Assembly: GCA_017882525.1 (NCBI GenBank)
Contig: JADGPI010000030.1
Location: 1-32,814, forward strand
Reading direction: 5' to 3'
Length of the DNA stretch: 32,814 bases
Source: Thermoleophilia bacterium
GTDB lineage: Bacteria > Actinomycetota > Thermoleophilia > RBG-16-64-13
A model generated the notes under the pieces. The model had not been told where the DNA came from. It was given only the letters and a program-made list of their open reading frames with translations, and did not search any database. Shown here one piece after another: positions 10,334 through 31,786 of this stretch (positions are counted from its first letter, which is position 1; each line of letters opens with the position of its first letter). The translations under genes and the position numbers were made by a program.

Positions 10334-10348
10334 GTGAGGTGGGGGGCG

Positions 10349-11296
10349 ATGGCTGAGTCATTCCTGTCGTTCGTCGTGAGTCCGGATGAGGTGGGCGCGC
10401 GCCTCGACGTGGTGCTGGGGCAGCGACCGGAGGTGGGTAGCCGCTCCCGCGTGGGCGAACTGATCCGAATCGGTGCGGTGACCGTCGACGGTATCGCGCG
10501 CTCCAAGAGCTATCGTCTCGGTGAGGGCCAGGTCGTGGCGGCGGTTCTTGCGGAGCCGGCTGCGCCCTCGCTCGCGGTCGAGGACGTGGCGCTCAGCATC
10601 TTATACGAGGACGAGTCGCTCCTTGTTGTCGACAAGCCTGCAGGCATGCCGGTCCACCCTTCAAAAGGCCACGCGGCTGGGACTCTTGTGAACGCTCTCT
10701 TGGGCCATGGGATCGGAGGAGGCGAGGAATTCCGCCCGGGCATCGTGCACCGGCTGGACAAGGACACCACGGGTTTGCTGGTGGTAGCCAAGTCGGTAGA
10801 GGCTCACCGCAGGCTCGTGCATATGATGAAGGAGCGCAAGATCGACCGGCGGTATCTGGCTCTCGTCCACGGCGGTTTTGCTTCAGAGAGTGGGACGATC
10901 GAGGCGCCCATCGGACGTGACCCCTCCAGCCGCAAGTCGATGGCCGTGGGCGGAACGGCTGCACGGGAGGCGCGCACCCATTTTCGGGTTCTGGAGCGTC
11001 TCGGCGATTTCACCCTGGTGGAAGCGCGGCTCGAGACCGGTAGGACCCATCAGATCCGCGTTCATTTCCAGGCTATTGGGCATCCGGTGGTGGGCGACCC
11101 TACTTACGCGCGCCGGGACGCGCTGGAGATCGGCCGGCAGTTCCTCCATAGCTACCGTCTGGCCTTCTCGCATCCCATGACGGAACAGCCCCTCAGCTTC
11201 GAAGCGCCTCTGCCCGCCGACCTGGCCGAGGTTCTACGCGGACTCCGCGGGCGGACGGCTGCCGGACAGGGAGGAGAAATCTCCCCCGGCGAGTAG
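10349..11296 (+). CDS. rluD: 23S rRNA pseudouridine synthase, RluA/RluD family
   Basis: S4-like N-terminus; DKPAGMPVHPSKGHAAGTLVNALL, PGIVHRLDKDTTGLLVVAKS, LETGRTHQIRVHFQAIGHPVVGDPTY. Confidence 0.94.
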   Translation: MAESFLSFVVSPDEVGARLDVVLGQRPEVGSRSRVGELIRIGAVTVDGIARSKSYRLGEGQVVAAVLAEPAAPSLAVEDVALSILYEDESLLVVDKPAGMPVHPSKGHAAGTLVNALLGHGIGGGEEFRPGIVHRLDKDTTGLLVVAKSVEAHRRLVHMMKERKIDRRYLALVHGGFASESGTIEAPIGRDPSSRKSMAVGGTAAREARTHFRVLERLGDFTLVEARLETGRTHQIRVHFQAIGHPVVGDPTYARRDALEIGRQFLHSYRLAFSHPMTEQPLSFEAPLPADLAEVLRGLRGRTAAGQGGEISPGE

Positions 11297-11379
11297 TAAG
11301 AAGACACGTGGGCACGCCACCCGGTTGTCGAATCCTCGAAACGTCCCCCGGGGTTCTCTCCAGCGCAAAAGGAGGCCTC

Positions 11380-12168
11380 ATGTTGAACGCACAAGCAGTC
11401 GCCGTGGCCAAGGACGCGTCCTTCCGACGCTTGAGGCTGTGGAACATGGTGGCAGGGCTGTTCCACCTGGCTCAGGCCATCGTAATGGTTCTGATCTCCA
11501 ATTCCGCGAGTCTTGCGGTCACGACCATGTACTCCAAGTACACCGGGGGGAAGCCGGAACCACTGCTGAAGACGATCGCGGATCCGCGGATCGGCATCAT
11601 GGTGTCTGTTTTCCTGTTCATGTCGGCCATCGCGCACTTCGCGATCTCGACTCCAGGCGGATATCGGTGGTATGTCCGCAACCTCAAGCAGCACGTCAAC
11701 TACGCGCGCTGGATCGAGTATGCCTTCAGTGCGTCCTGGATGATCGTGATAATCGCGATGATCACCGGGATGTCCGACCTTTCCAGCCTGCTGCTCATCG
11801 GTTTCCTCAACATGACGATGCTTCTGTTCGGGCTACTGATGGAGCGTCTCAACAAAGCCAATGAGAGAGTGGACTGGCTTCCGTTCTACTTCGGCTGTAT
11901 CGGCTGGGTCATCCCGTGGGCGACGATCGTCCTGTTCATCGCTGGGGCGAACGGCACGGGCGGTGGCAAGGTACCAGGCTTCGTCTACGGGATCATGGCG
12001 TCGCTGTTTGTCTTCTTCAGCATCTTCGCGCTCAACATGATCCTGCAATACAAGCGGGTCGGGAAATGGCGGGACTATCTCTACGGAGAGAAGGTGTACA
12101 TCGTCCTCAGCCTGACGGCCAAGGCGCTGCTGGCCTGGCAGGTCTTCTCGGCGGTGCTCCGAGGATAA
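11380..12168 (+). CDS. Heliorhodopsin
   Basis: 262 aa from ATG 11380 (AAAGGAGG ribosome-binding site). Seven hydrophobic segments; motifs recalled from heliorhodopsins: AGLFHLAQ, FLFMSAIAHFAIS, RWIEYAFSASWMIVIIAMITG, LPFYFGCIGWVIPW, VPGFVYGIMASLFVFF, LQYKRVGKWRDYLYGEKVYIVLSLTAKALLAWQVFS. Candidate retinal Lys248 at 12121-12123, candidate counterion Glu113 at 11716-11718. Confidence 0.95.
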   Translation: MLNAQAVAVAKDASFRRLRLWNMVAGLFHLAQAIVMVLISNSASLAVTTMYSKYTGGKPEPLLKTIADPRIGIMVSVFLFMSAIAHFAISTPGGYRWYVRNLKQHVNYARWIEYAFSASWMIVIIAMITGMSDLSSLLLIGFLNMTMLLFGLLMERLNKANERVDWLPFYFGCIGWVIPWATIVLFIAGANGTGGGKVPGFVYGIMASLFVFFSIFALNMILQYKRVGKWRDYLYGEKVYIVLSLTAKALLAWQVFSAVLRG

Positions 12169-12210: not shown

Positions 12211-15200
12211 CTATGCCGGCTCGAATCCCTCTGGGGGGGCGAAGCCCCGTCGGAGGGTGTTCTCGGTGACGGTTCGAGGCTCCAAGAACTGCAACAGGTA
12301 ATCGGGTCCACCGGCCTTGGAGCCCACGCCGCTCATGCGGGATCCGCCGAAAGGTTGCCGGCCTACCATGGCTCCGGTTATCTTCCGGTTGATATAGAGA
12401 TTGCCCACCCTGAACTCCGCATAGGCGCGCTTGATGTGTTCGGGGTCGCGCGAGAATAGGCCACCGGTGAGTCCGTACCGCACCCCGATCGCCAACGAGA
12501 GGGCCTGGTCGAAGTCGTGGGCCTTCGACACGGCAAGCACCGGGCCGAATATCTCTTCCTGGGCGATCGCCGCTTCGGGAGGCACTTCGGCGAATATGTG
12601 AGGTCTCACGAAGTACCCGGCAGGGTCCCCGTCTCCTGGGCCGCCGGTGGCCGGGGTGCCGAGAACCAGCCTGGCCTCGTTCTTGCCCTTTTCGATGTAC
12701 TCGAGGATCCGGTCCCTTGCCTCTGCCGTGATGACCGGTCCTACTCGCATACTGGGGTCGGCAGGGTCGCCGACCCGGAGACTGGCTGCAGCAGCCACCA
12801 ACCGTTCCAGGAAAAGGTCGTACACCGGTTCGAGGACGATCGCCCGGCTACACGCCGAGCACTTCTGGCCGGCGTAGTGGAACGCGGAGATCACCACACC
12901 TTCCACCGCGGCGTCGAGATCGGCATCGGAGTCCACGATGATGGCGTTCTTGCCTCCCATCTCGGCCACGACCTTTTTGATGTTCCTCTGGCCCGGCTGG
13001 ACGTTGGCGGCCTCGCGCAAGATGGACAGCCCCACCTCCAGGCTGCCGGTGAAGGCTATGAGATCGGTGCGCCTGTCTCTGACCAGGGCGGCGCCCACGA
13101 CGCCGCCCGGTCCGGGAAGGAAGTTGAGCGCGCCTTTGGGCACGCCGGCCTCGTGCAGTATGCGGACCATTTGGGCTCCCAGCACCGGCGTGGGGTTTGC
13201 GGGCTTGAACACGACGGAATTGCCGGCGACCAGGGCCGCCGAAGTCATCCCAACGGGAATCGCTAGGGGGAAGTTCCACGGAGCGATCACCGCTGCCACT
13301 CCCCGCGGTTCGTAAAAATAGAAGTCGCGCTCTCCGGGCACATCGCTGAGCGACCGTGGGCTGGCGAGCCGGAGCATCTCCCGACTGTAGTACTCGATGA
13401 AGTCGATGGCCTCCGTGACGTCGCCGTCGGCTTCTCGCCACGGTTTCCCCGCTTCGATCACTTCGAGCGCGGCCAGTTCGAACCGCCTGTCGCGCATGAG
13501 GGAGCCCGCCCGCAGAAGGATGGTGGCCCGCTCGCGAGGCGTCGTGTCACGCCACGCAGGGAAAGCAACGCGGGCTGCCGCTAGCGCGGCGTCCACCTCG
13601 ACGGACCCGGCGGCCGCTACGGTGCCGACCACGGTGCCGGGGTGAGCCGGATCGACCGATATGCTGACGTGACCTGTCTCAATGGACTTCCCGTCTATCA
13701 GCAGCGGATGGTGTGACCCGAGGCCGGCCCGGACAGTGTCTAGGGCGCTCAACATGGCATCGCGGGCCCACTCCTTGGAGAAATCGGCGTGCGGCTCGTT
13801 TTGGAAGGGCGGCAGCTCCTGCGACGTCGCGGGGCCGAGAGGACTTTCGTGCGGGCTAGTGGCTTGGGAGGGACGAAGTTCTTCCGCGTGTGAAGTCATG
13901 GCGTACTCCGGACTTGGTCGGGGAGGGGCGAGCAATCGAGCGTGCGAGTCGTGCTCGGTGAACGTGTGACGGAGAAAGGACTCGTTGGCCGTGTTCTCAA
14001 GAAGGCGCCTAACGAGGTAGCCCATCCCCGGGATAAGCTCGCCCACCGGCACGTACTCACGCACCCGCACTCCCAGGCTTACGGCTGCCGTACGAACCGG
14101 ATCGGCCATGCCGTGCAAGACCTGTAACTCCAGAGCGTTGTCGGGTAGACCTCGATCCCTGGCGTAGGCGAGTCCGTAGGCCATGCTCCGTACGTTGTGT
14201 GTGCCGAGCGCCGGATGCAGAGATTCGGAGTTATCCACTAAGAACCGGGTCAGGTGCTCGAACTGGGCGTCGGAGTCCATCTTGTGGACGAAGACGGGGA
14301 CGGGCCAATGCTCTTGGTGGGCCAAGACCGTCTCGTAATCCCAGTAGGCGCCCTTGACCAGACGCACGTTGATCGGAGTGCCCCGTTCGTGAACGAGGTC
14401 TCTCAAACCACTCAACACGCTCTCGCTGTCCCGGAGGTATGCCTGGACGCCGACCCCCACGTGAGGGTAGTCCCGGAACTCGTCCTCCCGCAGGAGTCGA
14501 GCGAACACCTGGTAGGTGAGGTCGCGGAGGGCCGACATCTCGAGATCCAGGCTCAAGAATGCGCCTCGTTCTTTGGCCGATCGGAGAATGGGTCTCAGTG
14601 CGGCGAGGATCGCTGTGGTGGACCCCTGCGGGTCCATCGGGTCTATCTGTGAATAGAGGGAACTCGTCTTGAGAGAAACGTTGACCCGCGGCACTTGGCC
14701 CCAGGGGTCGCGGTCCAGCCGAGGATTCGGCGGCCACGAGCCCACCGCCCCAGACAGGGCTCGCAGCGAGTCAAGGTACCGAAGACCGTATGCTTCGGCT
14801 TCGGCCTCGCTGAGGCAGGCTTCCCCGAGGACGTCCAACGTGAACGCGCTCCCCGACCTCCAAAGCCTCTCGAGCACCGGAAGGGCCTCGCCGGCATCGC
14901 GGCCTGCGATAAGGCGGCGGGCCATGGACCTCATTCCCCGGCCCACCACCATCGCAGCCGCTTGGCGGGGTAGCCGGCCGCGTCCGGCCGTGGAAAACGA
15001 CCAGCGCAGGATACGGCTCGGCATGATCACTTCTTTGAAATAGCTCTGCAGGTGGTCAGAAACCGCGTGGGAATCGTGAAGGGTCGGAAACACGTCGACA
15101 AAACGAAAGAGCTGGGTCTTGAATCGCTCGTCCCGCATCGCCCATGCCAACGACGAACGTTGCCACCAATCTCCGCGCAGCGGCGACGACCGATGCTCCT

Positions 15201-15318
15201 CGATGGCGGCGAAGAGTCTTTCGCCTATCTCTCGGGTACCGGCTTCTTCCGAAACCGAGTGTTTAGCGAGTCCTTCCGTGGTTCCCTCCGCACCCTGGTC
15301 CGGGTTCTTGGTACCCAA
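12211..15318 (-). CDS. putA: Bifunctional proline dehydrogenase / L-glutamate gamma-semialdehyde (P5C) dehydrogenase
   Basis: 1035 aa; PRODH half (VNVSLKTSSLYSQIDPMDPQGS, RLVKGAYWDYE, LGTHNVRS, LQVLHGMADPVR, VREYVPVGELIPGMGYLVRRLLENTANESFLR), then ALDH half (APWNFPLAIPVGMTSAALVAGNSVVFKPA, FTGSLEVGLSI, EMGGKNAIIVDSDADLDAAV, QKCSACSRAIV). Confidence 0.95.
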   Translation of the reverse strand: MGTKNPDQGAEGTTEGLAKHSVSEEAGTREIGERLFAAIEEHRSSPLRGDWWQRSSLAWAMRDERFKTQLFRFVDVFPTLHDSHAVSDHLQSYFKEVIMPSRILRWSFSTAGRGRLPRQAAAMVVGRGMRSMARRLIAGRDAGEALPVLERLWRSGSAFTLDVLGEACLSEAEAEAYGLRYLDSLRALSGAVGSWPPNPRLDRDPWGQVPRVNVSLKTSSLYSQIDPMDPQGSTTAILAALRPILRSAKERGAFLSLDLEMSALRDLTYQVFARLLREDEFRDYPHVGVGVQAYLRDSESVLSGLRDLVHERGTPINVRLVKGAYWDYETVLAHQEHWPVPVFVHKMDSDAQFEHLTRFLVDNSESLHPALGTHNVRSMAYGLAYARDRGLPDNALELQVLHGMADPVRTAAVSLGVRVREYVPVGELIPGMGYLVRRLLENTANESFLRHTFTEHDSHARLLAPPRPSPEYAMTSHAEELRPSQATSPHESPLGPATSQELPPFQNEPHADFSKEWARDAMLSALDTVRAGLGSHHPLLIDGKSIETGHVSISVDPAHPGTVVGTVAAAGSVEVDAALAAARVAFPAWRDTTPRERATILLRAGSLMRDRRFELAALEVIEAGKPWREADGDVTEAIDFIEYYSREMLRLASPRSLSDVPGERDFYFYEPRGVAAVIAPWNFPLAIPVGMTSAALVAGNSVVFKPANPTPVLGAQMVRILHEAGVPKGALNFLPGPGGVVGAALVRDRRTDLIAFTGSLEVGLSILREAANVQPGQRNIKKVVAEMGGKNAIIVDSDADLDAAVEGVVISAFHYAGQKCSACSRAIVLEPVYDLFLERLVAAAASLRVGDPADPSMRVGPVITAEARDRILEYIEKGKNEARLVLGTPATGGPGDGDPAGYFVRPHIFAEVPPEAAIAQEEIFGPVLAVSKAHDFDQALSLAIGVRYGLTGGLFSRDPEHIKRAYAEFRVGNLYINRKITGAMVGRQPFGGSRMSGVGSKAGGPDYLLQFLEPRTVTENTLRRGFAPPEGFEPA

Positions 15319-31325: not shown

Positions 31326-31786
31326 TCGGGATCGGGGACAAGGCTCCCCTGTTCGTTGCGCCTGGCACCGACGGGGAAGTCGATCTGGGAATGTTGCTCC
31401 AAGAAGGTCCGGTGGTTCTGTACTTCTTTCCCAAGGCCTTCACTCCGGGCTGAACGCTCGAAGCGGTTGAGTTCAACCAACAACTGGCGGAATTCCGGGC
31501 ATTGGGCGCGAAAGTAGTGGCCACCTCGGTGGATCCGCTGGTCAGGCTGCGACGCTTTCGGGATACGTATTCGCTGGGGTTCCCTTTGGTCGGCGACAAG
31601 GACCGGAAGATAGGGGAGAGCTACGGCACGCTGAAAGGCGGTCCGAGCAGTTCGGACGAACGCGACACCGTGGTCCTGGGCAAAGACGGCACCGTTCTGC
31701 TAGCCTACCAACGGGTCGCCGCCAAAGGGCATGCGGCGCAGGTACTGGCCGACGTGAAGAAGCTGCGACAGGAAGGCCTGCTGTAA
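31322..31786 (+). CDS. BCP-like peroxiredoxin, predicted selenoprotein (in-frame TGA at 31451-31453 = Sec44)
   Basis: One frame from GTG 31322 to TAA 31786 apart from one TGA: MIGIGDKAPLFVAPGTDGEVDLGMLLQEGPVVLYFFPKAFTPGUTLEAVEFNQQLAEFRALGAKVVATSVDPLVRLRRFRDTYSLGFPLVGDKDRKIGESYGTLKGG...GKDGTVLLAYQRVAAKGHAAQVLADVKKL. TGA falls at the peroxidatic Cys of the FTPGCT motif. The track reports only the part from 31502. Confidence 0.85.
31465..31478 (+). promoter_or_regulatory. Candidate bacterial SECIS hairpin
   Basis: GGTTG-AGTT-CAACC: 5-bp stem and 4-nt loop with G as second loop base; 16 nt between the TGA and the loop. Confidence 0.6.

Follow-up and report, generated by a model that had tools for sequence, protein, structure and literature searches.

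What is a heliorhodopsin-like gene doing between rluD and putA, and where would its retinal come from? The question is raised by a 32,814-nucleotide stretch of contig JADGPI010000030.1 from a Thermoleophilia bacterium (the window), in which a first-pass annotation had described a heliorhodopsin gene with its own ribosome-binding site, RluD upstream and a convergent PutA downstream. All of these elements could be confirmed. The open reading frame at 11380-12168 (forward strand) is complete, encodes 262 amino acids in an intact reading frame, and contains every motif named earlier: SLTAK248ALLAWQ, E113 in RWIEYAFSAS, H29 in LFHLAQ, H86 in AIAHF, and CIGWVIPW. Pfam profiles identify both neighbours. 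An rluD-type pseudouridine synthase gene (10334-11296, forward; PF00849, E 2.4e-38) lies 83 bp upstream, and putA, encoding proline dehydrogenase and aldehyde dehydrogenase (12211-15318, reverse; PF18083, PF01619, PF00171), converges on the gene and ends 42 bp from it. A putative Shine-Dalgarno-like site, AAAAGGAGG, is found at 11367-11375 (forward), 4 nt 5' of the ATG. An in-frame GTG at 11308 offers an alternative start giving a 286-aa open reading frame; we favour the ATG at 11380, which agrees better with the family alignment and with the ribosome-binding site. No promoter-like site was found upstream of the gene, so that transcription could continue through from rluD. Distant from the heliorhodopsin, the window also holds a small AhpC/TSA-family gene (31502-31786; PF00578).

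The identification as a heliorhodopsin was upheld by the profile search that the first-pass annotation had suggested. PF18761 matches the protein with an E-value of 2.4e-91 (positions 1-242 of 242), the NCBIfam heliorhodopsin equivalog NF038020 scores 302.6 bits (positions 1-244 of 244; equivalog cut-off 100 bits), and the PDB heliorhodopsins 6is6 and 6su3 match at E-values of about 1e-62 to 1e-59, strengths at which the match is not due to chance. The closest solved structures are heliorhodopsins without exception, at about 40-45% identity. An AlphaFold2 model (pLDDT 88.8) has the predicted seven-helix fold of the solved heliorhodopsins, distinct from type 1, with TM-scores of 0.85-0.87 against them. 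In structure comparison these matches have E-values of 4e-21 to 4e-18, and the weakest solved heliorhodopsin among the matches listed is at least 13 orders of magnitude ahead of the best other rhodopsin (5.6e-05). The type 1 microbial rhodopsin profile PF01036 gave no match to the protein at E-values up to 10, which together with the far weaker matches to other rhodopsin structures agrees with the earlier statement that the protein is distinct from type 1 rhodopsins; the genome-wide search with PF01036 had no positive control and carries little weight. By two curated profiles, residue-level alignment and predicted fold, then, the gene is a heliorhodopsin. An inverted topology, with the N-terminus in the cytoplasm, is assumed from homology. 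A search for a phage origin returned no meaningful PHROGs match.

Two characterised proteins serve as references. TaHeR from a Thermoplasmatales archaeon (PDB 6is6, 7u55) is 45% identical to the window protein, with TM-scores of 0.85-0.87; both have the His/His pair, the Glu counterion and the Lys, and they differ in the loop between helices A and B. The actinobacterial 48C12 (PDB 6su3, 6uh3) is 43% identical, with TM-scores of about 0.85-0.86, and has a shorter N-terminus. The window protein and 48C12 share all 13 residues of the network and Schiff base that were compared (N16, H23, Q26, S76, H80, Y92, R104, E107, E149, E230, S237, K241 and W246), whose roles, along with the hydrogen-bond chain of heliorhodopsin, are described in PMC9726877 (in excerpt); N101, Y108, M115 and A240 are also shared in the alignment. 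Placed in an alignment of 167 heliorhodopsins, the proton and hydrogen-bond network histidines are His29 (codon 11464-11466; 48C12 His23) and His86 (11635-11637; His80), and the Schiff-base counterion in helix 3 is Glu113 (11716-11718; Glu107), a position that is Glu in 152 of 152 His/His and Leu/Leu sequences. The SxxxK motif of helix 7 is formed by Ser244 (12109-12111; Ser237) and the retinal Schiff-base lysine, Lys248 (12121-12123; Lys241), all five codons being on the forward strand. One sequence of the 167, that of locus L211 (genome G136), is alone in having no Schiff-base lysine, and its scrambled C-terminus looks like a frameshift; it and the gene on G078:C226 are apparently frameshifted heliorhodopsin genes of class relatives. 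At the two colour-tuning positions (148 and 213 in 48C12 numbering) 48C12 has Gln, whereas the window protein has Met (Met154 and Met220). Met/Met is the pattern reported in excerpts of PMC7807009 for heliorhodopsin maxima below 540 nm, and on this basis absorption below 540 nm is predicted.

The host genome is a 2.52-Mb MAG of 317 contigs, 93% complete and 6% contaminated. The host is an actinobacterium and a monoderm, and heliorhodopsins are to be expected in such a host according to PMC8612252 (in excerpt). Heliorhodopsins occur in 102 of 399 genomes surveyed in the actinobacterial class, and the window gene is one more in a well-populated actinobacterial set, of a kind already well known.

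In the tree the window protein has a single close relative, at 65% identity, in a member of the same family (genome G015), and is otherwise distant from all; the next neighbours include Thermoplasmatota and Chloroflexota sequences. The gene order lspA, rluD, (putA), HAD and transketolase is conserved in the family: rluD stands beside a convergent putA in five relatives (L147, L148, L218, L219 and L220) and runs into HAD or transketolase in four (L213, L214, L216 and L217). With the window heliorhodopsin as query, tblastn found no match in any of these nine rluD stretches. A gain at this site is the simplest explanation of the nine sites without heliorhodopsin, and the gene was probably gained between rluD and putA. 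Foreign base composition was considered and dropped as an argument. The GC content of the gene is 58% versus 64%, and its third-position GC (0.81) equals the high level of its neighbours, so that composition gives no support for a recent foreign origin.

A second heliorhodopsin is present in the same genome, on contig C286 (locus L103, 4054-4851, reverse), with DUF2177, DegV and DUF1295 genes as neighbours. Six family members have heliorhodopsins that match it at 69-81% identity, and it falls among these in the tree; on this identity and placement it is the family's usual heliorhodopsin, which makes the window gene the additional copy. Given the same identity, contamination is an unlikely source of this copy in spite of the 6% estimate, and two further observations count against it: its tetranucleotide correlation with the window is 0.867 (0.855-0.914 among the window's own pieces), and the adjacent DUF1295 gene is 74% identical to that of a family relative. 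The two proteins are 49% identical and both retain the Glu and the Lys, but the C286 copy has Leu at both network histidines, where the window protein has His/His. Two full-length heliorhodopsins per genome are rare in the survey; another case, G133, has His/His in both copies. DegV directly follows heliorhodopsin in L103 and in two Dehalococcoidia loci (L008, L013), and in three Chloroflexota MAGs (L006, L010, L014) heliorhodopsin sits amid putative folate/pterin genes, named from sequence only.

The first-pass annotation had seen no carotenoid, retinal-synthesis or photolyase gene in the window, and this observation now extends genome-wide. Searches of the MAG, with positive controls, found no phytoene synthase (PF00494), RPE65-type oxygenase (PF03055), photolyase of PF03441 type or catalase (PF00199). 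BCD/Blh (PF15461) was likewise not found, in a search without its own positive control, and the profile does find a member in one class relative. At 93% completeness these absences are provisional. Since phytoene synthase, BCD/Blh and RPE65-type oxygenase gave no hits in the genome, the retinal probably comes from outside, and the window protein might often be without chromophore. In the class survey BCD was found in 1 of 98 genomes and heliorhodopsin in 41 of 99, and heliorhodopsin without BCD is therefore the norm in the class.

Beyond what is directly established (the family, the residues, the predicted fold, the second copy, the insertion site and the lack of retinal-pathway hits), we read the window gene, with a probability of roughly 70%, as a classical His/His heliorhodopsin: a retinal-binding, non-pumping, light-dependent regulator, present as an accessory copy at rluD/putA and supplied with retinal from the surroundings. 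All-trans retinal would be bound at Lys248, Glu113 would serve as the counterion, and the protein would absorb green light. A slow photocycle would follow, in which the Schiff-base proton is kept inside, around Glu113, His86 and His29, and not pumped, and the resulting shape change would be handed to another protein to give light-dependent regulation. The copy itself would have been acquired between rluD and putA by a cell whose genome also holds the family's usual heliorhodopsin, and its retinal would probably be imported. Regulation would most likely be linked to light and oxidative stress, a role suggested by the G015 gene order and by PMC8612252 (in excerpt). In G015 (locus L115), the source of the nearest relative, catalase (PF00199), heliorhodopsin and AhpC/TSA follow one another on one strand; a PAS-HisKA-receiver kinase gene converges on them, and the gene of a response regulator-HD protein lies upstream. 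The excerpted text of PMC8612252 reports catalase beside actinobacterial heliorhodopsins and an enrichment of kinases, two-component and redox genes near heliorhodopsins; the G015 order is fitting for the sensory/oxidative-stress role published there. In contrast to the G015 copy between catalase and AhpC/TSA, the window copy is flanked by rluD and putA and no redox or signalling genes adjoin it, so that the oxidative-stress link comes from the relative's gene order and the literature; the missing PF00199 catalase in the host genome also counts against this link. A conserved operon partner was also sought among genes within six positions in about 80 named and family loci, and no widely shared neighbour emerged beyond small recurring sets such as the DegV arrangement; heliorhodopsin was unplaced in 19 loci in the neighbour clustering, and the shared-neighbour counts are lower bounds.

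The strongest competitor holds that this is a genuine heliorhodopsin that is physiologically idle, mostly apo-protein and retained by chance after a recent gain. The missing matches to phytoene synthase, BCD and RPE65 would suit this account, as would the isolation of the window copy from stress and signalling genes. However, all checked network residues are conserved and the reading frame is intact, and as BCD-less heliorhodopsins are the rule in the class, the absence of the enzyme is no mark of a dead gene; we regard idleness as unlikely. Much less probable still is a light-driven ion transporter akin to the viral heliorhodopsin V2HeR3, with which the fold and Schiff-base chemistry are shared. 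Proton-transporting viral heliorhodopsins are marked by a glutamate (E191) and a TM6 tryptophan (PMC9448325, in excerpt), but in the alignment, counted by hand, the window protein has neither, with Leu209 and Phe213 in their place. We would give equally little credence to direct regulation of the chromosomal neighbours, RluD on the same strand at 83 bp or the convergent PutA ending at 42 bp, because the order rluD, heliorhodopsin, putA recurs in no relative and the nine relatives' rluD sites are without heliorhodopsin.

The reading as a classical His/His heliorhodopsin leads to the histidine pair itself. At positions 23 and 80 (48C12 numbering) the 167 aligned heliorhodopsins comprise 124 His/His, 28 Leu/Leu, 8 Phe/His and 7 Ala/His sequences, and in none is His80 alone lost. 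A strict two-state rule, drawn from the first 105 sequences, failed at 167, where His23 alone is Phe in eight (the clade of L172, L173, L180, L189, L195, L197, L203 and L204) and Ala in seven (the clade of L176, L177, L178, L181, L183, L184 and L193). On a tree built without the columns of positions 23 and 80, the Leu/Leu distribution requires four changes, the same number as in a 115-row tree. An AU test rejected one common origin for all Leu/Leu sequences (p 0.001), and to judge from these sequences the double change arose at least twice. Three Leu/Leu sequences outside the main Leu/Leu clade (L009, L049 and L081), which also have Glu for Gln26, could represent one event or three (p 0.051).

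A role for His23/His80 as Schiff-base proton acceptor is favoured in PMC9726877 and doubted in PMC6951262 (both in excerpt), and naturally occurring Leu/Leu heliorhodopsins went unmentioned in the heliorhodopsin literature covered, which was partial and omits several key papers. Leu/Leu heliorhodopsins that keep the rest of the network are natural double mutants bearing on this dispute. We suggest tentatively, at somewhat less than even odds, that the network classes are chiefly His/His and Leu/Leu and that two heliorhodopsins differing in photocycle and partners may coexist in a single cell. If so, one copy would have an internal His proton store and the other would be without it, in the same cell. 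The genome described here, with one His/His and one Leu/Leu heliorhodopsin, provides a natural pair for spectroscopy, and comparison of its two copies would be more useful than the window gene alone.
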